64,000 nucleotides of DNA from contig OZ038458.1 in assembly GCA_964036195.1 (NCBI GenBank), forward strand, positions 9,747,832 through 9,811,831, given 5' to 3'. Position numbers and translations under genes: made by a program. Under the pieces are notes generated by a model. The model was not told where the DNA came from. It saw only the letters and a program-made list of their open reading frames with translations, and searched no databases. This DNA comes from Sphaerolaimus hirsutus. Lineage: Eukaryota; Nematoda; Chromadorea; Monhysterida; Sphaerolaimidae. Below, piece after piece: positions 36,159 to 64,000 of the stretch. Every line of letters begins with the position of its first letter. Position 1 is the first letter of the stretch.

Positions 36159-36166
36159 GATAGGGT

Positions 36167-39180: not shown

Positions 39181-39197
39181 TGATTGATGTAAGTCTA

Positions 39198-41296: not shown

Positions 41297-41389
41297 GGAA
41301 ATGAGTGTTTTAATTGCCCGGTGTAATGCTAAACACACGTTGAATATTTACAATAACTGAGTTCCTACAAACTTATATTTATAAGTATA

Positions 41390-41635
41390 TACCGTATTCC
41401 CTCGAAATACCCCCCGGGGGGCGATTGTTTCAGAGTGAGAATTTTGAGAGAAAAACGTGAAAAATGCAACAATAACCACACTTTATACGTTTTTACAGCC
41501 TTATATAAGGATGTAGATGGTATAAACGATGTTCTAACGTAACACAGTAAGTGTTTTGAACATCTGTTATGCATTTGCCGGACTACAAATTCATAGTGCC
41601 GATTTTGAGGGGGGTATTTCGAGGAAATACGGTAG
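41390..41635. mobile_element. GAAATACCCC-type MITE
   Basis: Ends CCGTATTCCCTCGAAATACC and TATTTCGAGGAAATACGG are flanked by TA. The centre (GTTCTAACGTAACACAGTAA) is shared in reverse with 46768-47032. Confidence 0.82.
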
Positions 41636-41735
41636 ACGCTTATATTTACATGTCGGTTATTATGTTGCATTTTTGTACGTCTGCGTACGTTACAAACAAA
41701 GAATCAGTACTGGAAGTTAAACAAATGCTATCGAA

Positions 41736-42468
41736 ATAATAAACCCCTTCGAAATACCCCCTCCCTCGATTATCCCCTCAAAATTTACACTCTGAAAAAA
41801 TAAACCCCCTGGGGCCAGATTTAATACTCCCTACAGATTTGTAGGGTAGGGCGTACGCCCGACAGATTTTTTAAAGTTCAGCCGCATCGACACACATGCT
41901 CCGAGAGCAAGGCGGTTTGTAAAATATACGAAACCATCCCTTAAGGTCGCCGATATTGCAATATTACGTATATCACTTCGATTTTGGCCCGGAAATCACG
42001 ATTTCGTCATTTCTTGACCGTCTGCCAATTCGTTTTTTATTTTATTTTGTCGGGCGGGTTACTCGCATAAGTCGCGCTTTTGTACGCTCGTGCATGCATT
42101 TCGTTCTTGTCGCTGCCCTCATGGTTTCGGTTGCAGACAGTGAACACTAAAAAAGTGACCACCTGACTATACAAAAGCGCGACTTATGCGAGTAACCCGC
42201 CCGACAAAATAAAATAAAAAACGAATTGGCAGACGGCCAAGAAATGACGAAATCGTGATTTCCGGGCCAAAATCGAAGCAATATACGTCATATTACAATA
42301 TCGGCAACCTTAACGGATAGTTTCGTGTATGTTACGAACCGCCTTGCTCTCGGTGCATGTGCGTCGATGCGGTTGAATTTAAAAAAATCTATCGGGCGTA
42401 CGCCCTACCCTACAAATCTGTAGGGAGTATTAAATCTGGCCCCTGGGGTATTTCGAGGAAATACGGTA
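41736..42468. mobile_element. GAAATACCCC-type MITE split by a foldback element
   Basis: The left part has TCGAAATACCCCCTCC and CTGAAAAAATAAACCCCC. The right part is GGGGTATTTCGAGGAAATAC then GGTA. The 625-bp palindromic element sits between them. Confidence 0.7.
41806..42448. mobile_element. Foldback element with about 290-bp arms and 9-bp TSD
   Basis: The element is 41815-42439 (CCAGATTTAATACTCCC to its complement). CCCCTGGGG occurs on both sides at 41806-41814 and 42440-42448. Left arm to about 42095 and right arm from about 42160 are near-perfect reverse complements over their whole length. Long inverted repeats with 9-bp duplications are typical of Mutator-like elements; the assignment is inference. 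Confidence 0.8.
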
Positions 42469-42536
42469 AAACTAATTCATTTTAAAATGAAAAAGTTATG
42501 TTGAAGAGTTCAAAAAACAATCCCATCTATAGTAAA

Positions 42537-44304
42537 TAAACACGTCCGGCACCCAATTTGTGATTTTACTTGTTACATCCTATCCCCAGTTCTAGGGCGC
42601 GCCAGAGGCTGAAACTTGGGGGAGATATTGCCGCAACCCCCCTCTACTTCGCATGAATTAGGGGGTCACGGCTACCCTTTGCACGGTGGGTCGCCCTAAG
42701 TGCAAAAATTTTATTGGCTTTTTTGGTGTCCCGCACAGGTCCGGCACGCACTGATTTATGAGCTGTGGGAGGGCTATAATTTTAACATTTTGGGGATGTG
42801 CTACCAACACCATTCCCCTACTATAATACACTATTCAATAATGTGAGATCAATGTGAAAAATTTCTCAAAAATTCGCTCATTCTCTAAAAAACACCACTC
42901 CCCAATAGATGGATGACTTTTCTTGGATCACTTTTTGGAACTTTTTTATTAGACACTTGAAGAGCTGGTTTACGATACTTTAAAGGGAAGGGATTGATGT
43001 TTGTTGTTATGTAAAGAACCATACCTCTAAAATGCCTGCATTACAAAATTCAATTGGGGCGAATTTTATGACATCATAGTGACATCATTGCAGAAACAAA
43101 AATTTACAAAATTTACACTTTGACATTCACCCCTTTGACAAGTAAATTTTGCAATGCAGGCATTTTAGAGGTATGGTTCTTAACATAACTTTAAACATTA
43201 AACTCTTCCCTTTAAAGTATCGTAAACCAGTTTTTCAAGCTTCTAATAAAAAAGTTCCAAAAAGTGATTTTTTTGTCATCTATCTATTGGGGAGTGGTGT
43301 TTTTAGAGAGTAAGAAATTTTTTTAGAAATTTTTGCACATTAGGTAATCTCGCATTATTGAATAGTGTATAGTAGGGGAGGGGGTTGGCAACACATCCCA
43401 AAAATTTTAGATTTATACCCCTCCCACAGCTCAGAAATCAGTGGGTGCCAGACCTGTGTAGGACACCATAAAAGCCAATAAATTTTTTGCACATAGGGCG
43501 ACCCACCCTGAGAGGGGTCACCGTGACCCCCCAATTCATGCGAAGTAGAGGGGGCTTGCACCAATACCTCAGCCAAGTTTCAGCTTCTGTCACGCCTAGG
43601 GTGTCAAATTTCCGTTTTCCGTTTTCCGTTTCCGTTTCCCGCAGGCAAATTTTTTCCGTTTTCCGTTCCGTTTTCCGGCCGCTGAAATTTTTTTTCCGTT
43701 TTCCGTTCCGTTTTCCGGCAACCTTTTTTTCCGTTTCCGTTTTTCCGGCTCATTTTCCGTTTTCCGGTTAAATTTTCAGTTTTTCCGCCTTTTTTCCGTT
43801 TTCCGGCTCAATTTCCAGTTTTTCCACTTTTTTCCGTTTTCCGCCTCAATTTTCTGCTTTCTGCCTCATTTCATCATTTTCTGGCTCAACTTTCTGCTTT
43901 CTGTTCCAGCCAAACTGGTAAACAGTCATACAGATTGTCAATTATGTAAAAAAAATTTTGTTTCCAGCAAAATTTCAGCGAATTTTATCGTTTTTTTAGC
44001 AAAATTTCAGCAAATTTTTCCATTTCCATGCAAATTCCATTTTTCCGTTTCCGTTTTTCCGGCCCCTTTTTCCGTTTTCCGGCCACTTATATTTTTTTTC
44101 CGTTTCCGTTTCCGTTTTCCGCCAAGTGCAAATTTTTTTCCGTTTTCCGTTCCGTTTTCCGGCCGCTGAAATTTTTTTTCCGTTTCCGTTTCCGTTTTCC
44201 GTAAAAAAAATTTTTTGACACCCTAGTCACGCCCTAGAACTGGAGATAGGATGTCACAAGTAAAATCAAAAATAGGGTGCCGGACGTGACTGGGAAGGTG
44301 TTTA
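42537..44304. mobile_element. Long palindromic element, copy 2
   Basis: It begins AAACACGTCCGGCACCC (shortened end) and ends GTGACTGGGAAGGTGTTTA. It has the same arms and palindromic centre (42965-43225) as 32625-37070. One hAT-like element (43597-44225) is nested in its right arm. Confidence 0.78.
43589..44233. mobile_element. hAT-like MITE, CGGAAAA-word family, 629 bp, 8-bp TSD
   Basis: The element is 43597-44225 with perfect GTCACGCC flanks. It is the reverse-complement twin of 39206-39834, with the same length and almost no differences seen. Confidence 0.93.
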
Positions 44305-44432
44305 CAATGAAATAAGATGGTGTGCAGCCGGGTGTGTGTAGGACGCAATCAATTGGAAAATCTGTATGGCCGGCAGCGTCCACACAAGTCAAAAACGCAG
44401 GTGCGAACCGGGACCATGTGTTGCATGTATAT

Positions 44433-44557
44433 ATCGTATTTTTCTAATAAATAGAACGGCATACATCAAATATAACGGCACCTCCAAAAACGGCACGGCA
44501 GGTAAAAAAGTTGACGAAAAAAATAGAACGGCTCTCTTCTATTATAAGAAATACGGT
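44433..44557. mobile_element. TA-flanked MITE, AATAGAACGGC type
   Basis: The left head TATCGTATTTTTCTAATAAA and right end CTATTATAAGAAATACGGTA surround GAACGGCA/AACGGCACC phrases. Confidence 0.7.
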
Positions 44558-45326
44558 AGACGCAACCATGCAATTAATGTAATACAGTCCGCTGCGCAAA
44601 TATTTACGTAGCGAACACAAAAATCGTGCGACGGAGTGATTGTCAAGGGATAAACACTGACAACTTCAATAAACGTTCACTGGTGGGGGAGGGGCTGTCA
44701 AAAGCTTAATGTCTGGGAAAGTGATGGGTGATTGTAAAAAAATTGTCAAACTACCCCAGTTACAGTAGATATGACTTTTTCAAAAACTGAAAACATGTGC
44801 AGAAAACTACTGCAGGAATTACGGTATGAGAGCTGCCTGTAGCGTCGGTTAGACATTTGAAAACTGAAGACAGATAAATCCAAACAGGAAGTATCTAAAA
44901 AGTGAACTGCAAGGGTGCAATCTATCATAAATATATATGATCCTGCTCGGTTACATATTCAAATGCCGCACCCAGTTAGTGACAAGTTACGGACACTAGA
45001 ATTAACTCATTTGTAAATTTTTTTGAACGGCATTTAGAACTAATTCTTCAACTTAACCATCTCTTGGCTTGCAGTTTTTGACACAACAGTTTTCTAAGAA
45101 GTTAAAACATGGCCCGGGGCACCATTTGTTTTCAATTTCCTTTTTCCATGAGTGACAGATAAGCAGTACTTCCAGTATAAATAGCAAACATAAATATTAA
45201 CGGATAGATTTGCTACTTTCAAGTTTTAAACAGACAAGTGAGTTCGCCAGTTGATGGATGTCAACAATAAGCTATTTGATGACTTGAAACAAGTCATCAG
45301 CACGATACGTTTGAAGTGGTATCCTA
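44558..45326. other. AT-rich intergenic DNA
   Basis: No gene or recognised repeat was found. Confidence 0.4.
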
Positions 45327-45334
45327 CATGGATT

Positions 45335-46274
45335 CAGACTTGTTAAAGGTACTGCACTTTTTCAAAGTAAACGTAAACGTTAAGTATTATTTTTACTTAC
45401 CCTTGAGTACAGAAAACGAAGAGTTACATTTTTACTTTTATACTGTGTAAAGGTGAGTAAAATACGTTTTTTTAAAAGAAAACGTAAAAATGAGTGCTTT
45501 TGTTTAAGAAAATGCAAAAGCAAGTAATTTTTACAGGGAAAACAAATCATTCGAGTCATTTCTATTTTTTAAAAACACGTCCCAACATAAATACATGTAG
45601 TATTAAACCTTAGGGCCACTTGCAGACACATAATATAACAGCATTGAAAAAATCGTCAATTTTTAGAAAAAATAATTAAATATAATCTCAGAAAATCTCT
45701 CAAGAAAAAAATATAATTAAATCTCTCTCAAAATATAAATATCAGAATTTGAGAGATTTTCTGATATTTTTTAAAATCTCAGAAAATCTATTAAAAATAA
45801 AATATAATTAAATCACTCCAGAAAATCGTGAAAAAATATATAATTAAATCTCTCTCAAAATTAATATAAATATGAGAATTTGAGAGATTTTCTGATATTT
45901 TTTAAAATCTCTTAAAAATAAAATATAATTAAATCTCTCCAGAAAATCATGAAAAAAATATAAATCTCAGAAAATCTTATATTTTCTGAGATTTTCTGAC
46001 ATTTTTTAAATATAAACCTGACAGAGATTTTTTCAATGCTATTTTTCAATTTATGCACCCCATAATTTTTCATAATTACGTTTTCTGTACTAGTGTACTT
46101 TTGGTAGTAGTTGATTGAACTTACTACAAAATTTCAATCAATTATTTACAACACATTCAAAAAGTACACGTTAATGTGAGTGCAGGTATTTTTTATCGAA
46201 GGAAACGTAAACGTATTTACCCAGTATACGTATTTATTGAGTAAACGTAAATATGTTTTCAACAACTTCCTATG
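45335..46274. mobile_element. hAT-like MITE, GTAAACGTA-word family, carrying a nested palindrome
   Basis: The left end is CAGACTTGTTAAAGGTAC and the right end is CAACAACTTCCTATG. Flanks CATGGATT and CATGTATC match at 6 of 8. A palindromic element lies at 45635-46042. Confidence 0.65.
45635..46042. mobile_element. TCTCAGAAAATCT-word palindromic MITE
   Basis: Ends ACAGCATTGAAAAAATC and GATTTTTTCAATGCT bound repeated CTCAGAAAATCTCTC and complementary phrases. Confidence 0.65.
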
Positions 46275-46282
46275 CATGTATC

Positions 46283-46767
46283 TGCAATTAGAATGGACTC
46301 GTTCGAAACACACAAATAGAAGGTTCCGGTCCGTGCATGTTTGAATCAGTTACCTTTTGCTAATTATCATCAACATATTTATGTAAATAAGAACAGAAAA
46401 TACTTGTAGTAGAAAATAGTTTTCTGACGGAATTCTCCGGAAATATACGAAATGGTTTAAAATCTGTTTTCATTTATGTATGCGTTAGGCAATCCGATTG
46501 TAGCTACTATAATGAAATAAACATAAAAAAAACGTAATATTACAGAAACATAAGTGAAAAGAAAACGTACCCTTTATTTTTGAATTTGATATCAAGGAGT
46601 ATTTATTTCATAGCAGGTTTCGACCGGGACATCGTCTTATAATAAGAATTTCCATCTCTTTCTGTCACTCAACAACAGTCAAAAGTATACATGATAAAAT
46701 ATTGCTATTAAATACCGTATATTATATATAGGTATGTACCAATATGCACTTTTTACCGCATATATTT
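46283..46767. other. AT-rich intergenic DNA
   Basis: No gene or repeat was recognised. Confidence 0.4.
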
Positions 46768-47033
46768 ACCGTATTTCCTCGAAATACCCCCCTCCTCGAA
46801 ATACCCCCCTCAAAATGGGCACTATGAATTTGTGGTCCGGGAAATGCATAACAGACGTTCAAAACACTTACTGTGTTACGTTAGAACATCGTTTATACCA
46901 TCTACATCCTTATAATTATAAGGCTGTAAAAACTTATAAATGGTGGTTATTGTTGCATTTTTCACGTTTTTCTCTCAAAATTTTCACTCTGAAAAAATAA
47001 ACCCCCGGGGGGTAATTCGAGGAAATACGGTAC
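46767..47033. mobile_element. GAAATACCCC-type MITE
   Basis: CCGTATTTCCTCGAAATACC and TAATTCGAGGAAATACGG are flanked by TA. It is related in reverse to 41390-41635. Confidence 0.82.
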
Positions 47034-47071
47034 CCTAAATCATCGAATGATCGCCAGTGGAGTTTGTTTTT

Positions 47072-47228
47072 CGTCCGGTTTTTAAAGGGGGTATTATTCA
47101 AGGGGGAGTTCCTCAAGGGGATTTATTCAAGAGGGACTTATTCAAGGGGGAGTTATTCAAGGGGGAGTTACCCAAGGGGGATTTATTCAGGGGGACTTAC
47201 GGTATTCTTATTCGAGGATTTACGGTAT
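47072..47228. mobile_element. GAATAAGACC-type MITE, partial
   Basis: GGGGGAGTTATTCAAGGGGG phrases run to CTTATTCGAGGATTTACGG. Confidence 0.6.
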
Positions 47229-47440
47229 TCTTACTGGTCGCCAGATATGCTAAATCCATGTACCTAAAGTAAATACCTAGATCGCCGCCATAGACATATT
47301 GTGGTCTGTGGGCGGCGATACCCGACGGCCGCCGGCACTCGAGTTGCATGTCAGAGTCAAGTCAAATCATGATAAATTGGCAGGGCACCCAAACAGGAAC
47401 AGCATTATACGATGCCTTTAGTCACACTCCACGTTTCACT

Positions 47441-48102
47441 TTTGCTAGTGGCTGTCAGACCGCCTAATGAATGTACCTACTTTACATAGAATATCGTGAT
47501 GAGAAACGGGGATGGCCAGGGGTTTTACTACTATTTTTTATAATACAACTATTTTTTAAACAAAAGGTTGGTTTTTACATGCAAACATCAAATGCATTTA
47601 AATGCAAATATCATTTATGTTGCTGAAATAAGGAAACCTTGAAAAAAATCATACCATTTTCCTATAAAAATACTAAATAATAATAAGAAATTGACATCTG
47701 CTATGTCTTCCAGTGTAAAAATTGCTCTCACATGTGAAAAGCAGTAGCTTTCATATTCTATGATACATGAATAGAAATAGACACTTTTACATATTCTAAA
47801 AAGAAAAGTACTCGTTACTACATTTTCCAGGAAAAAGTACTCGCTTTTACATTTTCCAGGGAAAAAGTACTAGATTTTACATTTACCCGAAAAAAGTCTT
47901 TTACACAAACTCATGTAAAATACTCATGGGTACAGATACAAAATGCATTTTACATTTTCCGTTCTAGGAGTGAGTAAAACGTAAGTACTTTACATATGAA
48001 GGGTGTGCTTCTAAAAGTACCGATCTACAAATTTTTCAAATTTGAGTTAGGACCATTTTTGGGGTCCCCATAAAAATGCGCTTCAAAAAAATATGTAATA
48101 TG
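47441..48102 (+). repeat. Left pLTR of the Penelope-like element
   Basis: 662 bp from TTTGCTAGTGGC to GTAATATG. It matches 51959-52620 with substitutions near 47888 (C/T) and 48095 (G/A) only. Its last part contains the TGTGCTTCTAAAAGTACCGA phrase also tandemly repeated after the right copy. Confidence 0.93.
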
Positions 48103-48273: not shown

Positions 48274-49140
48274 GTGTACTTGACTTATTTTCAACTTAAA
48301 TTTGAATTCCGTCTTTTTTGCGACAGCACCCCCCTACTTATGACAGATCCAGAATCCATACGAGATCATGCTACGGCGTACCCGGTAGGCAACGCGCCAT
48401 CTATGCCGTGCGATGGCGATAAATATGTGCCGCGGCATTCAACCAGCTTTAAATTCATGTTTGTGGATTTTCACTCTACTTTTGCGACTTTTGCCAGTAT
48501 ACATGTCAGGGCTTACGATGTTGATTTTTGTGAAAATTCAGCCAAAACTGTTGACAAGTACTCTGGGAATGCAACCATGCAGTGTGGCAGGTTAAGCTGT
48601 CGAACCTGCCTCCATATAAACCTTTCAAAGTACTTTACCTCTACAATCACTACCCAATCTTTTGTTCACAATTTTACAAACATTTCATGCCTTACCAAAA
48701 ATGTCGTTTATTTAATAACATGTCGGTGTGGTTTACAATATGTTGGTGAAAGTAAACACTCACTGGACAAGCGATTCCAGCAACATATTTATAATATCAA
48801 AAAAGGAGCAAAAAATAACATTTTTTATGCCCATTTTACCTCTTCAAATGAATGCACCTGGGAACAGTTATCAGTGCAAATTATTCACGTTGTCGATCAA
48901 GGCATCAATTTCAATCAAAAAAGTTCTGACTTTACTAAAATAGAGTATAACTGGATCAATTTACTATTTTGTGCATACCCATATGGGCTTAATCAGAAAA
49001 TTAAAACACTCGGTTTAATTGACAAGTTTGATTTTTCCAATAATCAAACTTTTCTACCCTTTTTCAACACCAGACTGTGTCGATTTCCACGTCAACGACC
49101 ACAACATCACAAACCAAAGGTCGTTAAAGCTACGCTTTAA
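48274..49140 (+). other. GIY-YIG endonuclease portion of the Penelope-like element
   Basis: A 288-codon open piece. It contains the Cys motif and the GIY-YIG core with the Tyr, Gly, Arg and His positions expected in PLE nucleases. It ends in a TAA. The downstream frame stays in register and continues the protein. Confidence 0.8.
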
Positions 49141-51299
49141 TTTATCAGTACGCTGAGATCACCAAGGCAGGTTTACATTTACCTCAATTCGGTTAAAAAA
49201 TTGGAGCTCTCAGAAGTGTTTTATTTAGCATCAGTAGCCCGTCAAAGAGATTTAATTACCTTTCAAATTGAAAAATGTTTAAAATACGGATCCGAGGCAA
49301 AAAGAAGACATTTATATTTCCGCGCAAAAACTGTAGATAAACCAATTTTTATCCCGTTTCACTATGATACTCATTTCAATGATGTAGTAAGCTTATCTGT
49401 TTTACATCAAAACAGATTGAAACGGGCTCTAACTAAAGAACAAATCAAATACTTAGATAAATTATCACTAAAAATTTCCTATAATACCCCTCTTTCACTA
49501 AAGATATTTAACTAAAATCGTTTTTTTTAAAATTTAACAACTAGCGATCTTCAACGCATCATAAATACTGACTGTGAATGCAAAAATTCACTTTACTGTC
49601 ACCCACATTTTAATCACATTTTGACTGGTGATACAAAACTTACACCTAATGTTAAATTGCAACAATTTTTAGGATTTGGAACCAAATATCGGATAGCACC
49701 CCAACCGAAAAAATTGTTTACACACTCCAAATTTACAAATATAGTAAACAATATTTGCAATCATTTGGCTTCTTTTACACATAATAATGTTACTGCACTT
49801 GACTCTTACAGGGCGCGTGCTCTGCATGGGGTCAAATGCAGAATGAAAACAGCCGTTATTTCACAAGAACGCTTTTCGAGGATTGAATGGGATGTGACTT
49901 GCGACCACGCACTTTTGGACTTACAGGAAAAGTTCGTTATTACCTGTATTGACAAAGCGTCAGGTACTTATTCGTTTACTTGCAAAAAACTCTACCTTTT
50001 AATAATTTGTAAAGAATTCGGCATAGATAATGTGAACGACACCTCAACCTTCGGTAATTTTACTTATACTTATGAGGATTTTGATGAAGTTGGTAAAAAT
50101 AACTTATTCAACAGACATCACCAACTCCACTTAGACTTCCATTGTGAAGATAAACGTTTTGAGAAAAAAGTCCCCATTATTTATGCCATACCTAAATATC
50201 ACAAAACTCCACCGAAATTTCGTTTTATTGCGGGCGCCAAGCAGTCTACCTTAAATGGACTTGCCTGGTACCTTCATTTAATTTTAGTTTGTCTACAAAA
50301 ACAATTGAAACACTACTGTGATACGATAGTAGAATCTGGAGGCATAAACAGATATTAGATTGTGGACAATAGTCTAAACACCATGCAAAAACTTGATACA
50401 TGTTCACATGTATCCAATTTAATTTCGGCTGATTTTTCACAGGCATATACGTCATTGGACATAAATGCTATTAAATATCAAATATCGAAATTAGTGAATA
50501 TTCTGGTGAAACATGACAAATTAGTGGTGTTAAAAAACGACTATGCTACACTTAAGTCAATTAATTGCTGCAGTGAGAAAGACAAAATTACTTTTAACAA
50601 CTCTGAAATTATCGATCTTTTAAATTCAATTTTAGACAACACTTATGTATCTTTTGCTGGATTGTTGTTTAGACAAACTCGAGGGATTACTATGGGTTCA
50701 TCTGTATCCCCTGAACTTTGTAACTTATCATTGGCAATGATGGAATTCACCTTTGTACAAACTTGCCAAGATAAAGATTTACTTCAAAAATTAAATAATA
50801 AAATCTTCAGGTACATAGATGATACTCTATGTATAAATTTTTTACTAATTTTGGACCAATTGCAAAAAATATTTACCATGAATCCTTAACTTTAGAGATT
50901 TCAGAACTGGAGAATGGCACTAGGTGTCATTTTCTTGATCTGAACATTTCTATTCGAAATTCCAAACCTTCATATAAAATTTACAATAAAACCGATGATT
51001 ATAACTTCAAAATAATAAGCATGCCATTCATTCATTCGAATATCAAACAAAATGTATGCTACAATGTATTATTTAGTCAATGTATTCGTTTTTGTAGAGT
51101 ATGTTCAAACTTAGACGATCTCAACATACGTTTAATTTCGCTTTTAATAACTCTTAAATCGAACAGTTATAGTACCCAAAAACTCAAAAGTACATTAGAC
51201 GGTTTTAACAGGAAATACACACCCTTGCTACATAAATATTCAATTACAAATGCAATCCAAAGATCTGATTGGAGAGAAGTAATATTCAACAATATTTAA
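48274..51299 (+). pseudogene. Penelope-like GIY-YIG/reverse transcriptase, with breaks
   Basis: One frame runs from 48274 to 50889 and is interrupted by TAA at 49138, 49513 and 49528 and TAG at 50356. A frameshift near the T-run at 50838-50843 is needed to continue to 51299. N-terminal part: a Cys-rich stretch (CGRLSCRTC, about 48590-48610) then the GIY-YIG nuclease (YLITCRCGLQYVGE, about 48708-48750, with a following KRF-H). RT part: DKASGTYSF (about 49950), DFSQAYTSLD (about 50430), TRGITMGSSVSP (about 50680-50715) and YIDD (50812-50823). It would act by target-primed reverse transcription. With these breaks the copy looks inactive unless stops are read through. Confidence 0.82.
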
Positions 51300-53820: not shown

Positions 53821-54030
53821 ACAACATGCACAGTGACCCCTGTGCTTCTTGTTCACTTTTGTACAATTTCCACACTGAAATGACTGGCTGCCATTCTTGT
53901 TATTTTTGTTGAGGCTCCACTTGAAGACATGGCCGGGCCAATCTCTGGACTTGTAGAAGTATAATGGGTTCTTTCCCTTTGTGGTCAAACCGGCCGGAAA
54001 TGCCTCAGTGACACACGGGCCAAAGTCGGC
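53821..54030 (-). CDS. Possible host exon abutting the LTR of BEL element 2
   Basis: The minus strand is open as DFGPCVTEAFPAG, then a Trp/Tyr- and Cys/His-containing segment with GNCTKVNKKHRGHCACC, ending before a GTGAGT donor (53820-53815). The CX2C and HX(1-2)CX2C spacing suggests a small zinc-binding fold, loosely FLYWCH-like, but I cannot name it. The segment begins exactly at the LTR edge. Either the element landed inside this exon or a chance AG at the junction mimics an acceptor. Confidence 0.35.
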
Positions 54031-55127
54031 TGTAAAATAATACGGAACTTGTTGAAGTGACTTGTGAACTAGCTCCTATTCCTAACCGAGGAAGAGGACA
54101 AATGTGAACGTATGAAAGTTGACGTGAAGCGTCGTCTCTAGTTGACGTTCCGTTTTTTTATCAAAATGTGAATTAGTTGAGTTGAAGTGAATTGACGTGA
54201 GTTAGTGTGAAGCAAATTTAGATTGTTTACCAAAGGTTTTGACGAACGTTTTTATTTAGACAATTAAATACAAAGAAATAAGTGTAAATAAAATATCTAT
54301 AAAATTATACGTAAACAAAGGAATTAATTTACAACTAAATTAATTACTTAAATAAAACACGAAATAAGTTCTAATTACCGAAGAAATAAGGCAATTTATA
54401 GAAGGCACTTAATTACGACAAAAGGCGAATTAAGTGGCACGGTTGTGAGGAAAGCACCTTAAACAGCGCAGGTGTGAATAAAGCACTGAGGTGACTTAAA
54501 GCACCAAGAGTTAAACTTAGCACCAAAAACAAGCGACTTAATAAAGTGACAACGGCGCTTATTTAGATCCTAGGAAGAGATTCTTGTGAAGTTGACGAGG
54601 TTGCAAACACTGCCGATTCTAGCTGTGAAATCGGCTTTTAAGGGCCAGACCGATGGCGATTGACTTGGCGCCAATCGGTCGGCTCTAATCTCCGATTTTT
54701 ACCCAACATTTCCAATTGTGAAAGTTCAATCCTTGCCCGCTCGCGTCTCCGATGAAAAGCGAGCTAAACTGACAAGATAGTGAAAATGTGAGACAAGCCA
54801 GACAGCATTTGAAATGGCGCGCGGGCCCGGCCCCCCGCTTGGGGGCGAGCCCGCCGCTTAACATAAACATGACGGCGTATTTGCGTGCTGCTTGTCAAGG
54901 AAATGTGGCAGAATGTGAGCAATGACTAAGATCTAAATATGTGAGCGATGTAAAGCGCACGTTGTAAACAACGTGCTTGAGATATTAAATGACGAATGTG
55001 AAGATGTTAAAAATGGAATGTGAATAAAAATGGAATCGTAATAAATTGAATTAATTAAATATAAAAGAGAACATAAGAATGTCAACTTAAATATTAAAGA
55101 TTTTACATTTTACGATAATGTTACACA
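54031..55127 (-). repeat. 3' LTR of BEL element 2
   Basis: On the minus strand it starts TGTGTAACATTATCG, right after a purine-rich TTTTGGGAG, and ends CCGTATTATTTTACA. The TGT...ACA ends and imperfect terminal inverted repeats fit an LTR of 1097 bp. A GC-rich hairpin (CCCCGCTTGGGG) lies near 54830-54845. The GTGA word common in the coding part is also frequent in 54040-54220. Confidence 0.72.
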
Positions 55128-55140
55128 CTCCCAAAACTAG
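55128..55140 (-). other. Polypurine tract of BEL element 2
   Basis: The minus strand reads CTAGTTTTGGGAG directly before the LTR's TGTG. It has the position and composition expected of the plus-strand primer. Confidence 0.6.
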
Positions 55141-55204
55141 AATAAAAATTAAATTTAATTTAATTTTATCTCAGCCAATCTCGGCAAATTGATGTGAATC
55201 AAAA

Positions 55205-58115
55205 TCAAACGCCTGTGATACTCTCATCACTCCTGTGGTAGAAGATCGTCGGCGTCTTCGACGCCGGCATTTTCCCGGCCCTCCTCATGATGCTCGTCCA
55301 TGGGTTCGACGGCATCCTCCTCAGGCTGGCTGCCTTCCCCGTGCCCGGGCGCCTGGTCTTCTGGGGCCCCCGCTGGTCGGCCTGGCCAGTTGGGGAGCTT
55401 CTCAGATTCCTTGGCGAGCTGCTCGAAGGCTTGTCGGAGCGTGTCGGTCTCGTCGACGCTCGTCTTCGACGGCTCGGTGGGCTGCCATTGCTCCGTTGCT
55501 GCAAGCGGTTGGCTTGGTAGCAAGGGGACATGGGAGGTTGTGAATGAGGTCGTACACTGTGAAGAGATTGAGTTGAATTGGTCAAATGGTACGGAGGGGG
55601 ATCTAGATCTTGATCGTGATTTTCTTCCGTCTCTCCGAGCTCTATGTCGGACTGTGAAGGTGTTTGTTTGAGGAAGGTCACGGATCTTTTTAGATCGTTT
55701 AACTTTTGATTTGACCAGTTTTTTATTGATGTTATTGAATTTGTGAAAAGTTTGGGGTATAAAGGAAAATGTCTGGTGTGATGATTGATGCTCACCTGGG
55801 AGCCCTGCGACTCCAGCGAATCTCTTGAGTCGCTTTTGCAAGGGCTCGCGGTCAGGGAACGCGTCTTCCATTGTGACCTCCGTTGTGACGGGCTCAGTGA
55901 ATGTGAGTCTGGCGTTTGGTGACGAGCTCTGCGTTTGTGACTCGCAGGGGGGTGCAGGTTTTGTGACCCGGCACACACCCGTCTCCATTTCAATTTCTTC
56001 GGCGCGTTCGGTACTATAACCGACCGGGGGATCCGATCTAGGCTGTACCGAGCGTCCTGAAAGCCGTTTGAATGGAGAAACTCGCTTGAGGGGTGTGACA
56101 AACTTTGAAGGTAACTGTGACGAACTTGACGATTGTGTGACGGTTTGACTTGACAAAGCGGGTTTGTTGAAGCCGCTTTTCGGTTTCTTCTGGCGGTTAC
56201 GTCGCCGTCGCTTACCGATTTTTCCTTGCTGAACGGACGGGGTTCCCATTTGTTTGGGCTTCTGTCCCTTCTGCCCTTTCTTCGGAAAAAGCCCTTGATG
56301 TCTGGCAGCATACCCCTGCCGGTTACGAGCCGCCACTGCATGTAAACATAGCCAATATACCCAATACAAGCAATTGTGATAATAATGAGTATGATGTTCA
56401 CAGCTGTTTGAAGTGGCCCAGTAAGTAACGTGTCTAATGCAGACGCACCACCTGTGACACTACCGTGAATGATGTGACCAAATTCTTTTCCCACACCTTC
56501 AAAATATGCACCAACCCCTTGGTTGATGCCAGCAATATATGCCTGCACGGCTTTAGGATCGTTGGATTTTGTTGCAATATAATCAACTGAACGTGTGACT
56601 TGTTGTTCGAGTCGTTGCAGATTTTGAAAGTGATGATGTGCAGCCATGATACTGAATGCAATATCAGTCATGCTTACACCTGGTGACCCGGAAACGTTTA
56701 GTGTGAATGGTTTCCACGAGCCAGCCCAAATTAATTCGATTGGGAGTTTTGTGACATGCAAATTCGTTGGCCCGTTTTCGTTGGCCCATGAATTATCATT
56801 TAATTGATAATATTTGTGATCTTTCATGAGACAATGATCTATTGGTGAATGTGTGATTAGATCATTGGTACCAGGAGCTACGAACATTATATGCGGGTGA
56901 TCTGTGACTTTGACTGGCAGAAATTTATAACAAGTATTGTTATATTCATGTTGAAAATAAATCATTTCTGCTGTGACAGGTTTACAATCCCAGAACATCA
57001 ATATATCTCCATGCCATTCAGCATAGAGATTTTGACGTCCTAACAACGCTCGCAAGCCAAGTGTGGGATTGAATGTGACAATTGCATGAATTATATCCAA
57101 TTGGGTCTGACGGATGTGACATAATTGTTGCCAGATGGATCCAAATTGTTTTTGTTCCAGATGTGCAATTTTGTCAACTTCATATTGTTGACGAGCTGTG
57201 AGCAAGTGAAATACACCAACATCAAGATTCGGTGCGAGTTTGAAATGAAGAGGAGCTTTTTTTGTTTCAGGTTTTTTCAATTTCTTAAGTTGATATCGAA
57301 GAAATTGAATGAATGCCGAGCCCTGGTCAATATATTTTGCGTCTTTTGGCACACATTCTGCATTATTTGGAAATTGTTGTGATCTCCATGTGACCGAAAA
57401 TGCAGCTTGCAATTTTTCCACTATGTAATGATTTTGTGAATATTGCGCATCAAATTGACCAATCTCTTGGAACGCACACTGTTTGTTAAAAGCAGTAGCA
57501 TTCCATAAAGAGACGCCATTGTCGCTGTCATAACAATAGCCGGCTTGTGGGTTGCAATGTGACAGATCTTGAATTTCGGAAACAATTTTCTTTCCGTCAA
57601 GACTTGCGACCACACCTTCTTCTATGTGAAAATTCATCACCGTGTTACTCAGATTGTGACAAAAGTAGCAATAATCAATGTGAAGTGATTTGTTGGTACT
57701 CCACAATGCATGACCGATTTTTACTAAAGGTTCGCCTTTCCAAGTTTTATTTTGGTAGGCGATCATGCAATCGTAGGTTGTGACTCTGTGATTTCTAATG
57801 ATTTCTGGTGGCAACATAGATTTTCCGCCCACTAGACTCATATATGTGATTATAGTATGCTCTTGTTGAAAGCATCTATAAATTGGTGTTGTTTGCGGTT
57901 CAACACGCAACGTCCATATGGATATCACAATATCCTCTATGGCTGTAACTTGAGGAAAATGACATGTTACTTTTTCCGGAAGTTGAATTGCAAGACCAGT
58001 GCGTGTTTTATGGCACAGATTGAAAGTTTTGTGATATTGATCTGTCCATGTGAGCGCGTTGGCTAATTTTGATTGTATTAGCAACGTGAGTGCCATTAAA
58101 TGCGACACGTTTCCC
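55205..58115 (-). other. Env-like glycoprotein region of BEL element 2
   Basis: It is in frame with pol. A hydrophobic signal-like segment (MALTLLIQSKLANAL, about 58100-58050) is followed by a Cys-containing ectodomain with N-glycosylation sites. A Gly-rich membrane-proximal part (56560-56430) and a membrane span near 56405-56340 (NIILIIITIACIGYIGY) come next. The cytoplasmic tail is about 375 residues. It contains a PPPY motif of the kind retroviruses use for budding (about 55590). A second long frame overlaps the tail. Confidence 0.78.
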
Positions 58116-61100
58116 CAGAACGAATATGTGCCAGTGTAGCGACACGTTCGACGTGGGTTTGCGCGTCTTGCATCTTGTTGTGAAGATTGTGATTGTTGAT
58201 GTGATTGATCTGTTTGTGAATCATCACCTTTATCAGGTGGAGGTTGTGATTTATCATCATCCTTTACCTCAGTGTCGATTTTATACTCAACACCGTCCTC
58301 TGTGTCGATTTCAAGAGGCACGAGGTTAGATGGGGATCTACGTGTGCGACGGCCGTTACTTGACAATACTGTGACTGCACGTATTTTGCCATCGCTTGAC
58401 ACGTGTATCTCGTGAACGCGGCCCATTTGCCACATGCCACGTGGCTGTTTATTGTCAGTAATTAACACTACTTGGCCACGTTTGGGAGCTTCGTTGATAG
58501 TGCCTTTTTTCAAGCGTTGATTTTTGGCTCGATCTTTGAGTAGGTCAATGTATTGACGTGACCACTCATACCAAAGCACTTCACGATTGTGACGAATTTG
58601 GTCCCAGAGTAATGTGATGTCATCTCTGTCCTTTTCAGGCACAGAGTTGAGTGCAATTTTGTCAATGCAGTTGACGTCATTGACACGTGGGGGTGTGAGT
58701 GTGTAGGATTTTCCAATTTGTGAGGGTGTGAGATTGAAAGATCCATCCGTCAGCTTATCCCATTCCTCTTTTGGAATTTTTCGCATGGGTTCAATCGTGG
58801 TGGAATCAAGTTCCATCTCACGTTTTACATCCATGTAACATGGCGGTGGGGTGCCCCAAAGAAAATGTATTGGGCGCAGTATCGCTGCACCAATGTCTGT
58901 GTTTGACAAATATGACAATGGTCGCGTGTTGACGGAGAATTCGACGTCAAGCATGACTGTGAGAAATTCATGCCATGTGAGACAACGTCTACCGCATGCT
59001 TTTTTGAGCAAGCGTTTGACTAATCCGACCATGCGTTCGTACACGCCGCCTTGCCAAGGACTATTGGCTGTGATAAAATGCCATTTTACGTCCGGCAGCA
59101 TTTTGACACAATTTTTGAACGCGGGAGCATTGTCGGACCACATTGTGTCTGGCATGCCTCGTCGCGAAATGAAACGATTTAGAGCCATAATTGTGTCAGC
59201 TGTTGAGACACTATTGGTTGACTCTAAATGAATGGCGCGTGTACTGAAGCATGTTAGCAACAATATGTGTTGACTGTGACGGGTTCCGTTCTGTGAATAA
59301 ACTAACGGTCCCATATAATCAATGCCAATATGTTGAAATGGCTTGATTTGTGATTGAGTTCGAGTGACAGGTAATGTGTGAAAATCAGGTAATGTGAATG
59401 GACCTCCTTCCGCTTTGCGGCATGTGACACATTTGCGCAAAATTTTTGCAACTACCTGCTTGGCACTTGACAACCAGCAGTGTTCGCGTAAATCTGCTAA
59501 AGTGTGAAGCATGCCACTGTGACCAGCAAGCTCATGAAAATGAGTTACTACCAGCGTTGTTAACCATCCGGTCTTTGGTAGATAGTAAAATAACGAAGGG
59601 TTTCTGTGTTCTTTGTGAGACACACGCGTGACACAATATAATAAATTATTCCACGCGTCCCATTTAAGCATGTGGTGCTTGCCAAGTTGCGCTTGTGAAA
59701 TGCAACTGGCGCATTCTTCTGCTTGTGAAATGCGTAATACATGTCTAAATGCTTCGTTTAGATCAGCTTGTGTGATAGGTTTTGATAAATATTCGCTTTC
59801 GCGTTTTGCAGCTTTGTGCATAGAGCGATTTAGCCAATATGTTTTCACACGAAGTAGATAAACGACAGTGCGCAATAATTTTGACAATGTTGAAAATCGT
59901 CGAATGTCGATTTCAAATGGATTTGAAGGGATGTGACGTTGTCGACTTTCGACAAACGGATTTTGAGGAGTGACATTTTGTGACAAATTGGGGTCCAAAT
60001 TGACAGGCACTTGTTGTGCAAGAGCATTAGCTGGTTGTGAAGCAGGCTGTGAAGTTACTGCTCCAGCGTATAAAGGTCGACTGATGTGAGTGTCGCCTTT
60101 CGCAAGCTCTTCGGTGACAGGTTGCGCTTGATATTGCGAAATGTCAAGCATGGTTGATGTGAAGGGTTCAGCAAAAAATGTTGGTCCTGTGAACCACATT
60201 GTTTCGATCATTAGCTGATCAAAAGTACATCCCCGTGACGCTATGTCAGCTGGATTGTCTTTTGTAGCAACCTTGCAAATTTGAATGCAGTGTTTTGACA
60301 TAAATGAATGGATTTTTGTGACCCGATTGTTGACAAAAGTAGCCAGCGGCTTTGAAGTGTATAGCCAGCCGATGACAACTGTACTATCGGTCCATAGGAA
60401 ATTACTGTGAATTTTCCATCCACCCAGCTCAACGAGTTCATGATGTAAATAATCGATGAGTTGTGCACCAATTGTGACACCGAGCAATTCCAAGCGTGTG
60501 ATTGTGAGGGGTTGACCTTGTTTTGACGGAAGTGGAGCCAATTTTGTGCGAGCTGTGAGAAAACCACTAAAATATCGGTCATCTTCATAACCGTATTCAT
60601 CCGGTGAAATCGCTTGTTGACGCAAATAAGCGCAAACAGCGTATCCATCTTTAGAGGCATCGCAAAACACATGTAACTCTAATGGGCGTGTTTCGGCTTT
60701 GACATCGATGCCAAAAGAGTGAAATGAGCGCGGGAATTTGATTTGACTTATGGACGAGAGATGTCGTTTTAAATCGTCCAGTAAGTCATCCGCCTCTGGG
60801 TCTTCGATGAGTTCATCCCAGCTTGTGATATTGCACCTTTGAATTATTTGTGACACGCGAAATTTCAACTGAAATAACGCGGGTGCTGTGATGCCAATAG
60901 GATCGTATGTTGAAGCTAGCAATTTGTTTAAATTGCGGCGCGTTGCTGTGACAATGAGCGTGAAATCTTTTTTGGGAGCTGGCACTGCAATGGTGTCGTC
61001 AATGTGATCGTATACAAGACCCATTACCTTGATGTATTGTGACTGTTTCGGGTTGAGATCATCAGGTTTGATTTTCTCAGAAACAATACGTGAATTTGTC

Positions 61101-64000
61101 ATCCATTCACGCATGTTGAAATTTGCTCTTGCAAAAACAGCTTCAATTAAGCGATAGAGCTGTATTGCATATTTTTCATCATCTACGCTGATAACTAAAT
61201 CATCAACGTAAATGCTGTTGAGCAGCAGTTCCAGTTTCGATCGTTCATGTGTCTCAGCGGGATGCATGTGAGCTAATTCCGCTTCCAGGTGATATTTAAT
61301 AACAGTCGACAAAATGGATGGACTGCATGTGAGACCAAATAGCACCCTTGTGAATTGCATCATTTGAATATTGTCTTCGTGAGTCGGAATAGTGTCATCG
61401 CGCAGCCAATAAAATTTTGTGAAAGCGCGTGATTTTGGGTGAAGAGCAATTTGTAAAAATGCTTTCTCAATGTCAGCTAATAACACTACTTTTCCGGCTC
61501 TGAAACGAAGCATTAATCCGAGCGCCAGTGGTGTGAGAACTGGGCCTCGAAATAAGCAATTGTTGAGACTTGGCTTGCCTGCAGAACCATCATACACTAT
61601 TCGACATGTTGTCAATCTGCCAGGTGTGATGACAGGTTGGTGAGGTAAGATGTGTTCTTGCAAACCATCCTGTGAACCGTAGACGGGTTCTATGACACCC
61701 TTGTGAAGTTGATCTGAGATGACTTTCGCGTATGTGGCGAATAAATCGGGATCTTTTCGAAACCTTTTCAACAGTGACAGAAAGCGGCGAAATGCTTCTG
61801 CATTGTTGGTTGGCAATTTGTGAATTGTTGACTTGAATGGCCAATCTACGCTATAGCGTCCAGTTTCTGGATCAAGAGTAATTGATTCCAGAATTAACTG
61901 TTCAGCTATGTCATCATCATGTGATAATGGATCATCTGTGATACCTATTGACTCGAGACTGTGAAATTGAAATAATGTCTCTTGGCCAACAGCAACAGCT
62001 GATGAAGCATGTGAACTACATGAAACCATGAATTGATGTGGCGAAATGTCGGGTGTTGTGACAAATGACTGTGATGACGCATTTCCGCCAAGCATCAATC
62101 CAAGTATTGATTTGACGATAATCAATCCAGATGGGAGTTCGATTTCCATTGGTCGAATATCAAACTTCCAATAATAGTCTTGACCAATGACCACATCTGG
62201 TTGACATAGTATGTGACAAAACTCATCAGTCATTTCTGTCAATTCAAGCGGTTCCGCGAATTGTTCTTGTGCATGTTCACCGTACACAATATAAATGACT
62301 GTTTTGTCATCTTGTGACAAAGGAGGTGGGCATGCATATGTTGCCAAATTATCTACTGCACGTAAAGTGAGCGGAATTTGTAACATATTGCCCTTATTGT
62401 CGACGTGTTTGTAAATAGGCATGACGGCCTCGACTATTGACGTATTGACTGTGACAGGTGTTTTTGTCGCAAACACGTTCATTTGAAGAACAACATCTCC
62501 TTTGTTTTCAAAGTTATACTCATTTGCCACAGATGCTTTAATGTATGAATATTCGCATCCAGTGTCAAAGAATATTAACAAAGGGTCTGTGACTCGATTT
62601 AATTCAGCGTCTTTATTAATTAATGAAGCCTGGGCCACTTGCAAACGAACAATAGGCGCAAAATCGAACTCACATTCTTGTTCGGCCTGCTGCCTGGTAG
62701 CGGTGTTGGGGTTACCGTAACCCGCTTGTGCGCTCAGCACCTCCACCGTGGGCCTGTGACTGGGTTGAAGTGGCACCGACGATGACATTTGGTTCGGGTT
62801 GAGGTGTGGGTACACCTCATACCGTTTCTGCTGGAAGTCGACGGTCTCCATGTCCATGCCGTCCTTGATGAGGCCGGCGTGGAGCGTCGTCCACAGCTCG
62901 TTTTCGCTGTGATACTTGCGGGCTTCCTCCTGAGCTCTCGCCTGGAGCTCGTTAGCGGGCCTCGGCCATTCGCCCATGTCCAGCGGACCGTCCATATCCA
63001 TTTGATACAGCGTCTGCTGTCTCCACCGAAAATCGTTCTCGTCCGGTGGGATGACACACACGCTCATCGGTTCCGTGTGTGAAGGCGGATACGATGGCGG
63101 TGCATGTGACGAAGCCGCGCCCGTTGTGATTACCTGAGCGTTGACAAAATTAGCGCTCGTTGCTTTGACAAAGGCTTTATTTTGTGAATTGTTTACCTGA
63201 CGCCTTGCGGGTGCCTGTCTGGTAGGACAGAACGCCCCGTGATGTTGACCAATCTGGCGACAATAGTAGCAACTCAATCGTTGAGTGCACTGTTCCGCTT
63301 GATGGCCTCTGCGTGTGCAGCGTGTGCACACATCGCCCAAAGCTTGCAACCGTTCGATGCGCTCTCTCGGTGTGACGTATTGAGGGCAATCGGTGGTGTA
63401 GTGCTCTTTGATGCCACAGAACAAGCACTCAAATTTTGGCTTGCGATAGTCAGCAGCAGGTTGTGAAAACTGCTTTTGACTAGTCGCTCCGATCGCGGGA
63501 GTTCTGGGAGGTTGAGTGGAATTTTTATTTTTTCCTTGTTGTTTACCAACATTAGCATTGGTACCAGCAAAAGCAACCGTGTTGTGAATAGGTTTTGGTT
63601 TTGAAAAGGTATTTGGTGATTTATTTCCCTTTTTCTTTTGCTGTTGCCAAACACCTCCATTTTGTGGCTTTTTTAACGATGAATTCTGTGATTTTTGAAC
63701 AACGTTTGAAGATTGTGAACTTTGTTGTTCAGTTTTCATCGCATCTAATCGAGCACGAGCAATGGTAGTTAATGCATCGACAAACCTGACGACTGTGAGT
63801 TCTGTGTCGTCGGTTGCAGCAGTGCGCATTGAATTCCGGTGTTCTTCTGTGACGGCAAGAACAATATTATCGGGAAGATAACCACGAATTATTCGTAACA
63901 CTGCACCAGAATCGACACTTTCACCCCTTTCTTTTAGTTGATTGAGAGTTGACAAAAGGGTTCTTGTGAAATTTGTGAGGGAGTCTCCTCTTGACGAAGG
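55205..64000 (-). CDS. BEL/Pao Gag-Pol-Env-like polyprotein, element 2 (N-terminus off window)
   Basis: The frame is open from the right edge to a stop at 55205, over 2930 codons. The edge codons (SRGDSLTNF) still read as DUF1759-type gag. In order: three zinc knuckles (about 63435-63230); aspartic protease with DTGCEYSY (about 62570); RT with ADIEKAF (about 61480) and YVDD (about 61210); RNase H with FCDASKDGY (about 60665); integrase HHCC finger (about 59540-59415); integrase motifs GIDYMGP (about 59325), WSDNAPAF (about 59135) and GGVYERM (about 59045); a DUF5641-like domain (about 58500-58310); and an env-like segment from about 58110. Unlike element 1, the RT box is canonical. The true start codon is outside the window. 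Confidence 0.93.
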   Translation of the reverse strand, partial: PSSRGDSLTNFTRTLLSTLNQLKERGESVDSGAVLRIIRGYLPDNIVLAVTEEHRNSMRTAATDDTELTVVRFVDALTTIARARLDAMKTEQQSSQSSNVVQKSQNSSLKKPQNGGVWQQQKKKGNKSPNTFSKPKPIHNTVAFAGTNANVGKQQGKNKNSTQPPRTPAIGATSQKQFSQPAADYRKPKFECLFCGIKEHYTTDCPQYVTPRERIERLQALGDVCTRCTRRGHQAEQCTQRLSCYYCRQIGQHHGAFCPTRQAPARRQVNNSQNKAFVKATSANFVNAQVITTGAASSHAPPSYPPSHTEPMSVCVIPPDENDFRWRQQTLYQMDMDGPLDMGEWPRPANELQARAQEEARKYHSENELWTTLHAGLIKDGMDMETVDFQQKRYEVYPHLNPNQMSSSVPLQPSHRPTVEVLSAQAGYGNPNTATRQQAEQECEFDFAPIVRLQVAQASLINKDAELNRVTDPLLIFFDTGCEYSYIKASVANEYNFENKGDVVLQMNVFATKTPVTVNTSIVEAVMPIYKHVDNKGNMLQIPLTLRAVDNLATYACPPPLSQDDKTVIYIVYGEHAQEQFAEPLELTEMTDEFCHILCQPDVVIGQDYYWKFDIRPMEIELPSGLIIVKSILGLMLGGNASSQSFVTTPDISPHQFMVSCSSHASSAVAVGQETLFQFHSLESIGITDDPLSHDDDIAEQLILESITLDPETGRYSVDWPFKSTIHKLPTNNAEAFRRFLSLLKRFRKDPDLFATYAKVISDQLHKGVIEPVYGSQDGLQEHILPHQPVITPGRLTTCRIVYDGSAGKPSLNNCLFRGPVLTPLALGLMLRFRAGKVVLLADIEKAFLQIALHPKSRAFTKFYWLRDDTIPTHEDNIQMMQFTRVLFGLTCSPSILSTVIKYHLEAELAHMHPAETHERSKLELLLNSIYVDDLVISVDDEKYAIQLYRLIEAVFARANFNMREWMTNSRIVSEKIKPDDLNPKQSQYIKVMGLVYDHIDDTIAVPAPKKDFTLIVTATRRNLNKLLASTYDPIGITAPALFQLKFRVSQIIQRCNITSWDELIEDPEADDLLDDLKRHLSSISQIKFPRSFHSFGIDVKAETRPLELHVFCDASKDGYAVCAYLRQQAISPDEYGYEDDRYFSGFLTARTKLAPLPSKQGQPLTITRLELLGVTIGAQLIDYLHHELVELGGWKIHSNFLWTDSTVVIGWLYTSKPLATFVNNRVTKIHSFMSKHCIQICKVATKDNPADIASRGCTFDQLMIETMWFTGPTFFAEPFTSTMLDISQYQAQPVTEELAKGDTHISRPLYAGAVTSQPASQPANALAQQVPVNLDPNLSQNVTPQNPFVESRQRHIPSNPFEIDIRRFSTLSKLLRTVVYLLRVKTYWLNRSMHKAAKRESEYLSKPITQADLNEAFRHVLRISQAEECASCISQAQLGKHHMLKWDAWNNLLYCVTRVSHKEHRNPSLFYYLPKTGWLTTLVVTHFHELAGHSGMLHTLADLREHCWLSSAKQVVAKILRKCVTCRKAEGGPFTLPDFHTLPVTRTQSQIKPFQHIGIDYMGPLVYSQNGTRHSQHILLLTCFSTRAIHLESTNSVSTADTIMALNRFISRRGMPDTMWSDNAPAFKNCVKMLPDVKWHFITANSPWQGGVYERMVGLVKRLLKKACGRRCLTWHEFLTVMLDVEFSVNTRPLSYLSNTDIGAAILRPIHFLWGTPPPCYMDVKREMELDSTTIEPMRKIPKEEWDKLTDGSFNLTPSQIGKSYTLTPPRVNDVNCIDKIALNSVPEKDRDDITLLWDQIRHNREVLWYEWSRQYIDLLKDRAKNQRLKKGTINEAPKRGQVVLITDNKQPRGMWQMGRVHEIHVSSDGKIRAVTVLSSNGRRTRRSPSNLVPLEIDTEDGVEYKIDTEVKDDDKSQPPPDKGDDSQTDQSHQQSQSSQQDARRANPRRTCRYTGTYSFWGNVSHLMALTLLIQSKLANALTWTDQYHKTFNLCHKTRTGLAIQLPEKVTCHFPQVTAIEDIVISIWTLRVEPQTTPIYRCFQQEHTIITYMSLVGGKSMLPPEIIRNHRVTTYDCMIAYQNKTWKGEPLVKIGHALWSTNKSLHIDYCYFCHNLSNTVMNFHIEEGVVASLDGKKIVSEIQDLSHCNPQAGYCYDSDNGVSLWNATAFNKQCAFQEIGQFDAQYSQNHYIVEKLQAAFSVTWRSQQFPNNAECVPKDAKYIDQGSAFIQFLRYQLKKLKKPETKKAPLHFKLAPNLDVGVFHLLTARQQYEVDKIAHLEQKQFGSIWQQLCHIRQTQLDIIHAIVTFNPTLGLRALLGRQNLYAEWHGDILMFWDCKPVTAEMIYFQHEYNNTCYKFLPVKVTDHPHIMFVAPGTNDLITHSPIDHCLMKDHKYYQLNDNSWANENGPTNLHVTKLPIELIWAGSWKPFTLNVSGSPGVSMTDIAFSIMAAHHHFQNLQRLEQQVTRSVDYIATKSNDPKAVQAYIAGINQGVGAYFEGVGKEFGHIIHGSVTGGASALDTLLTGPLQTAVNIILIIITIACIGYIGYVYMQWRLVTGRGMLPDIKGFFRRKGRRDRSPNKWEPRPFSKEKSVSDGDVTARRNRKAASTNPLCQVKPSHNRQVRHSYLQSLSHPSSEFLHSNGFQDARYSLDRIPRSVIVPNAPKKLKWRRVCAGSQNLHPPASHKRRARHQTPDSHSLSPSQRRSQWKTRSLTASPCKSDSRDSLESQGSQVSINHHTRHFPLYPKLFTNSITSIKNWSNQKLNDLKRSVTFLKQTPSQSDIELGETEENHDQDLDPPPYHLTNSTQSLHSVRPHSQPPMSPCYQANRLQQRSNGSPPSRRRRASTRPTRSDKPSSSSPRNLRSSPTGQADQRGPQKTRRPGTGKAASLRRMPSNPWTSIMRRAGKMPASKTPTIFYHRSDESITGV
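55227..56369 (-). CDS. Overlapping 380-codon frame in the env tail region (possible accessory protein)
   Basis: A second minus-strand frame, offset from the polyprotein frame, is open for 380 codons and ends 22 bases before the main stop. It has no early ATG: it opens at a TTG, and the first ATG is at 56249 (340 codons). The product would have a basic arginine-rich stretch (GKRRRRNRQKKPK, about 56215-56175), a Ser/Arg segment (GRKSRSRSRSPS, about 55635-55600) and an acidic C-terminus. The next longest alternative minus-strand frame across the element is 143 codons. It could be translated from a spliced RNA or be a chance open frame. No homologue is recognised. Confidence 0.4.
   Translation of the reverse strand: MYWVYWLCLHAVAARNRQGYAARHQGLFPKKGQKGQKPKQMGTPSVQQGKIGKRRRRNRQKKPKSGFNKPALSSQTVTQSSSSSQLPSKFVTPLKRVSPFKRLSGRSVQPRSDPPVGYSTERAEEIEMETGVCRVTKPAPPCESQTQSSSPNARLTFTEPVTTEVTMEDAFPDREPLQKRLKRFAGVAGLPGEHQSSHQTFSFIPQTFHKFNNINKKLVKSKVKRSKKIRDLPQTNTFTVRHRARRDGRKSRSRSRSPSVPFDQFNSISSQCTTSFTTSHVPLLPSQPLAATEQWQPTEPSKTSVDETDTLRQAFEQLAKESEKLPNWPGRPAGAPEDQAPGHGEGSQPEEDAVEPMDEHHEEGRENAGVEDADDLLPQE

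Follow-up and report, generated by a model that had tools for sequence, protein, structure and literature searches.

What fills one retrotransposon of the nematode Sphaerolaimus hirsutus with a single five-letter word, and at which level, protein, DNA or RNA, does this word act? The window, a stretch of 64,000 nucleotides analysed here at its full length, ends in a BEL element that an earlier note, made from the letters alone, had described as saturated with TCACA on its sense strand, and for which it had proposed a nucleic-acid-level function or process.

A BEL/Pao element and its TCACA words

The element, here named BEL element 2, lies on the minus strand at 54031-64000 of the window and runs past it (to L032:404). 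Its 3' LTR (54031-55127, minus strand, 1097 bp) is 99.45% identical, without gaps, to a 5' LTR outside the window (L012:2477-3169 plus L032:1-404), and the 5-bp target-site duplication TCGGC (54026-54030 in the window) is the same at both ends. A gag-pol-env polyprotein frame (55205-63955, minus strand) stays open beyond the window and shows Pfam matches, all on the minus strand, to the reverse transcriptase (RT) domain RVT_1 (61112-61495), the Pao peptidase_A17 domain (60383-60943), the integrase H2C2 domain (59411-59560), DUF5641 (58322-58606) and an env-like Monjiviricetes fusion glycoprotein domain (56786-57571); the last scores 41.7 bits with a cut-off of 27, an assignment by domain score. 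CCHC-like repeats are visible in this frame, and no Pfam model matched the zinc-knuckle part of Gag. The matches to PF05380, PF00078, PF17921 and PF18701, together with the LTR pair and the target-site duplication, are those of a BEL/Pao (Belpaoviridae) element. In the ICTV profile of the Belpaoviridae, LTRs measure 0.2-1.2 kb and genomes 4.2-10 kb (PMC8742986); the LTRs of BEL element 2 fall inside the first range, and its length of about 12.2 kb (9970 + 2273 bases, nested LTR left out) exceeds the second, which is the size range of described members and not a membership rule. The RT region has at least 103 matches in the 348-Mb host genome, at 96-100% amino-acid identity. A solo BEL1-type LTR is nested near the 5' end of the element (L012:724-2023, 94% identical to window 9894-11184), with CTTT on both sides.

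The in-window part (9970 bases) contains TCACA 133 times in element sense and 4 times on the other strand, and each strand of the 54 kb of the window outside it averages about 1.2 per kb. Counted as TGTGA on the plus strand, the word is found 9-15 times in every 1-kb bin between 54001 and 64000, compared with 0-4 times in the preceding 54 bins; its density is even along the element and ends at the element edge. These counts bear out the earlier reports of about 10 TGTGA in the 540 bases from 59341 (10 in 59341-59880) and of a similar density through 55.8-64 kb, and the GTGA said to continue in the LTR at 54040-54220 is there as complete TGTGA at 54063, 54103, 54167 and 54206. Beyond the TCAC core noted for the LTR, the whole word populates it, with 14 TCACA and no TGTGA in sense over 1097 bp. 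Parts of the element outside the window (gag start, leader and 5' LTR; 2273 bases) hold 26 further copies, giving a total of about 160 (133 + 26, nested LTR excluded), or one per ~75 nt. The nested 1300-bp LTR has no TCACA in element sense, and 2 copies lie in the 1096 bases past the 5' LTR. Regular spacing of the words was not significant (CV 0.84 versus 0.91 for random placement, P 0.15).

The remainder of the window has features of its own. A second BEL element, BEL1, occupies 1-11184 (minus strand), and its LTR at 9895-11184 is 100% identical to L013:1465-2754, indicating a very young insertion; its RT has 94 scored genomic matches, 99-100% identical in amino acids, and the element carries a fusion glycoprotein of the same type. 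A tandem array spans 12074-13605; its period is ~96-105 bp, and several reading frames on the two strands stay open in it. Within 32001-48000, ACGGAAA words and GGCGCC-type words are strongly enriched at 32-40 kb, and the complement of ACGGAAA is so at 40-48 kb; two inverted repeat copies (39202-39834 and 43597-44229, 99.8% identical) are also similar to L013:840-1467. The fragments at 48274-51299 (plus strand), with RT and GIY-YIG-like frames, resemble a Penelope-like element. The window also holds a receptor-like gene with four matches; the three that carry names come from nematodes, in line with a nematode host.

The word, the protein code and the genomic copies

The coding sequence of BEL element 2 holds 116 TCACA, compared with 37.9 ± 4.6 in synonymous shuffles, which keep both protein and codon usage and never reached this number (0 of 1000); such a shuffle would be a conservative test if the word itself raises the TCA and ACA codons. 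The excess is found in all three codon phases (37 versus 20.2, 49 versus 11.0 and 30 versus 6.4), in agreement with the claim that the word falls in every phase, and the comparison with a codon-shuffled null that had been suggested as a check therefore does not support codon bias as the cause of the count. Of the three dipeptide classes that can accommodate the word, S[QH] (47 versus 21.7) and [FLIV]T (75 versus 48.4) are in excess in the protein, and the third, xH[KNTIRSM], is not clearly so (42 versus 33.7, 104/2000); of these hosting places, 37 of 47, 49 of 75 and 30 of 42, respectively, actually bear TCACA. By amino-acid order alone, TCACA ranks first among the 1024 words in BEL element 2, with a z of 6.5. 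The same test on 120 homologous polyproteins gave z values of -2.9 to 4.2 for TCACA, and two homologues have a different top word with a z above 6.5 (P0042, 12.3; P0114, 7.6). Word-bearing residues of the polymerase sit at less conserved columns (entropy 2.14 versus 1.80, p 0.013), with 7 of 67 in columns at least 80% conserved versus 155 of 661, which suggests that the protein has adjusted to the word and not the word to the protein.

Variation among copies of the element was analysed on 25 copies including that of the window, 4.2 kb each and most of them at about 5% DNA divergence from the window copy; each contains 52-57 TCACA. Variation was counted on 21 of these (L010, L027, L028 and L030 were excluded for partial or indel-rich alignment), with expectations taken from matched sites, of the same base at the same codon position. 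The 280 word columns showed 6 singletons versus 26.2 expected, 3 doubletons versus 5.8 and 4 shared variants versus 17.3, so that the proposed check of word positions between copies finds much less variation at the word than at the matched positions. TCACA was the most constrained of 143 5-mers tested (13 variable columns versus 45.7, z -5.6), and 46 of 66 word positions were present in all 21 copies, compared with 13-57% for 12 control words. The footprint of this constraint is confined to the first four letters, with observed-to-expected ratios of 0.25 for T, 0.08 for C, 0.29 for A and 0.10 for C; the last A, at 0.88, is required for enrichment yet scarcely constrained among coding copies. 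The two adjacent bases are unconstrained (1.36 and 1.21), and further offsets scatter between 0.54 and 1.33, a few flanking ones being low (0.54 at -12 and +9). Among minority changes, 10 create TCACA and 7 destroy it, where random placement gives 3.3 (P 0.001) and 35.5 (0 of 1000), respectively. The noncoding LTR region was compared across 17 copies, after removal of 4 of the 20 fetched because their matches were short; 3 of its 74 word columns were variable versus 11.6 expected, and TCACA was again the most constrained of the 5-mers tested (43, z -2.8). Strong ongoing selection holds the TCACA words over the ~5.4 kb on which constraint was measured and, by inference, over the remainder of the ~12.2-kb element. 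The excess in all phases, the presence of the word in the LTR and its constraint in noncoding sequence all support the nucleic-acid-level function or process put forward originally.

Other BEL families of the same genome were sampled for comparison. In BEL1, TCACA occurs 15 times versus 13.6 by synonymous shuffle. Twenty further BEL places (L065-L084) comprise, by RT similarity, 18 of a third family with subfamilies, a BEL1-like variant (L082) and a more distant element (L081), with at most ~40% RT identity to BEL element 2; TCACA z values there range from -1.2 to 3.1, the highest being that of L082 (12 versus 5.8), compared with about 17 in BEL element 2. Searches of the own genome with PF05380 (150 scored, 20 fetched) and with P0001 (58 matches) led to places that, by frame length and overlap, resemble BEL1 and the third family; among the matches listed there was no closer relative of BEL element 2, and one may exist. 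Scans of viral contigs gave no related element. In a scan of genome contigs, three from MAG bins (L001-L003) were BEL-like; their tested frames had no 5-mer above z 5.1 and no TCACA enrichment (z -0.3 to 0.7). As observations in their own right, these are BEL/Pao-type elements in contigs filed as bacterial or archaeal MAGs, likely through eukaryote contamination of the bins. Enrichment of such size is therefore absent from both the window remainder and the sampled BEL families, the latter being a comparison that the earlier note had proposed, and neither a host-wide bias nor a common need of BEL elements explains TCACA.

Two related words were also followed. GTCAA is enriched in BEL element 2 (41 versus 21.6) and, relative to random placement, is gained more (12 versus 3.7) and lost less (5 versus 14.5); it showed no clear accessibility gain (z 0.8) and no constraint in the column test (z -1.2). 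TGTCA is likewise enriched. Since BEL1 or the third family also shows a raised TGTCA and, at several places, a raised GTCAA, part of these GTCA surroundings is not specific to BEL element 2. The idea that each family has its own word was rejected: TCAGA, in excess in BEL1 (57 versus 25.8), is unconstrained (14 variable columns versus 13.4, rank 110 of 175) and gains little in accessibility (z 1.6, reached in 3 of 40), and no BEL1 word went beyond z -2.9 when 11 of 12 copies were put through the constraint pipeline. We take this excess as codon or composition bias and as a negative control for the method.

Predicted accessibility and a putative RNA-binding reader

Local fold prediction for the sense RNA gives the words of the coding part a mean unpaired probability of 0.380, which fell to 0.292 ± 0.018 when only the flanking codons were reshuffled (0 of 60 reached 0.380), and overall accessibility moved in the opposite direction (0.173 to 0.187). 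Control words, either of permuted composition or otherwise rich in A and C, showed no accessibility gain (z -1.5 and 0.2). Over the whole element and without flank control, the difference in predicted unpairedness is small (0.388 for the words, 0.351 for permuted words). GTGA, which could pair with the UCAC core, is depleted (14 versus 26.5; 0 of 1000 shuffles at or below); depletion of the full complement TGTGA was not significant by synonymous shuffles (4 versus 6.5), and recent changes showed no avoidance of GTGA (gains 8 versus 7.4). On balance, these results suggest that the word is read unpaired in RNA.

The reading that best fits these results, and to which we give an even chance, is that a sequence-specific single-strand RNA-binding protein recognises UCAC(A) and coats the whole RNA, and that this protein is most likely encoded by the element. 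About 160 single-stranded UCACA sites would be spread along the genomic RNA, and the putative protein would decorate it over its whole length. Even coverage, together with the lack of enrichment in the other sampled BEL families, favours an element-specific coat over a single local signal. We slightly favour an element-encoded reader over a host protein; such a reader would explain why, among the sampled families, only BEL element 2 has the word, and it would tell the RNA of this element from other BEL RNA and from host mRNA, for packaging or export.

One candidate reader is the zinc-knuckle nucleocapsid part of Gag. The other is the product of an overlapping open frame at 55227-56369 (minus strand; 380 codons, listed from TTG and not ATG), which lies over the end of env in another phase and may encode an accessory RNA-binding protein. 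Its N-terminal part is rich in Arg, Lys and Ser (for example KRRRRNRQKKPKS, plus an RS run), and its C-terminus is acidic. In 8 of 9 copies no stop interrupts the frame over the length fetched. Variable sites at the three codon positions number 21, 42 and 49 of ~361 each in the overlap and 2, 3 and 23 of ~102 each upstream, a pattern that moderately suggests dual coding. In 8 copies (L092 dropped), stop-creating changes occur once in this frame versus 5.0 expected (p 0.035), compared with 3 versus 5.2 in the polyprotein frame and 3 versus 5.4 in the third frame, so the stop test shows no constraint on the polyprotein tail. The best Pfam match was below cut-off (SAGA-Tad1, 16.5 bits, cut-off 31), and a homologue search gave none of 6988 candidates at E 0.01 or better.

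With less than even confidence, we propose a further step, in which the ~160 unpaired UCACA would act as a self-recognition code, read by the element's own protein (Gag nucleocapsid or overlapping basic protein), that picks out its own RNA from those of the many BEL elements sharing the genome, with its proteins bearing a measurable cost.

Competing explanations and known systems

Could the pattern arise without any reader? An account by codon usage, amino-acid repeats or composition can point to the over-represented S[QH] and [FLIV]T dipeptides; we give it practically no credence, considering the failure of every synonymous shuffle to reach the count, the excess in all three phases, the position of the words at less conserved protein columns and the constrained TCACA of the noncoding LTR. 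A mutation bias during reverse transcription, editing or repair, which would create and protect TCACA, is very unlikely. A context-dependent mutator could in principle raise gains above and losses below random placement, but one substitution channel is insufficient (the excess is ~100, and each word one step away is expected ~9-34 times), constraint falls on T, C, A and C individually and spares the adjacent neighbours, the flanks predicted to keep the word unpaired are left unexplained, and the other sampled BEL families lack the pattern. Among binding sites, small-RNA evasion and biased mutation, the options listed by the earlier note, binding sites fit best, given the 4-nt footprint, the purged losses and favoured gains and the predicted unpairedness, and simple mutation bias fits poorly. 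Binding could also take place on DNA, through a strand-polar binding site or a recombination-directing word; the LTR and coding parts bear the word alike, and strand polarity alone is compatible with DNA. We nevertheless consider a DNA-level signal unlikely, as double-stranded DNA needs neither the specific rise in predicted sense-RNA unpairedness nor the depletion of the complement core GTGA.

More weight is due to a host RNA-binding protein of UCAC/CAC specificity, of the Vera/IMP or RBPMS type, which would bind the words for germline localisation, export, stability or silencing protection; we regard this as quite possible, though short of an even chance. Oocyte mRNAs are localised by clusters of short CAC motifs including UUCAC, which Vera binds, according to PMC1973087, and TTCACA occurs here 45 times versus 9.7 expected from a dinucleotide model. 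The RRM of RBPMS, crystallised on UCACU, contacts UCAC according to PMC4783296, matching the 4-nt footprint. Against a host protein of this type, BEL element 2 has the repeated short CAC-containing words of a localisation element in an even density over its whole length, and not in a local 3' UTR cluster, and other sampled BEL families of the same genome do not use the word. Moreover, according to PMC4798249, binding of Hermes/RBPMS to nanos RNA needs UGCAC repeats and was prevented by changing UGCAC to UUCAC; here GCACA, the core of these repeats, is not enriched (12 versus 11.2) and GCAC is below expectation (30 versus 54.7, dinucleotide model). A literature search, narrow in part and no proof of absence, found no described UCACA or UCAC word in retroelements or nematode proteins.

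The usual place to look for self-recognition of RNA by retroelements is a single structured packaging region. BEL element 2 is a case in which the signal apparently takes the form of a five-letter word over the entire RNA, retained at the expense of protein-coding demands, and the combination of synonymous shuffles and constraint among copies is applicable to other repeat families. In the retroviral Rev/RRE system, a basic protein comes from a frame overlapping env, and the RRE is one structured element. By analogy, BEL element 2 may encode a basic protein in a frame overlapping env and has RNA sites that such a protein could bind; it differs in having ~160 short, predicted-unpaired words in place of the one RRE. 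Anakin-type Pao elements also join BEL/Pao to an env-like glycoprotein, of chuvirus type there and with a Monjiviricetes fusion domain here; they are from mosquito, the accessible part of their description does not mention an RNA word (PMC7642597), and the env of BEL element 2 is assigned by its domain match. Localised oocyte mRNAs (Vg1, VegT and nanos) share with it the repeats of short CAC-containing words such as UUCAC, which in the mRNAs are described as localisation-element clusters in the 3' UTR and here extend over the whole RNA including its coding part (PMC1973087). The dispersed packaging signals of RNA viruses, in the Twarock/Stockley model, likewise consist of many copies of one short motif through the genomic RNA, and BEL element 2 has many selected copies of such a motif along its own; the viral signals are, as described in PMC6281560, sequence-structure motifs recognised by the coat protein, whereas here a plain 5-mer, predicted to be unpaired, is found in a retroelement.
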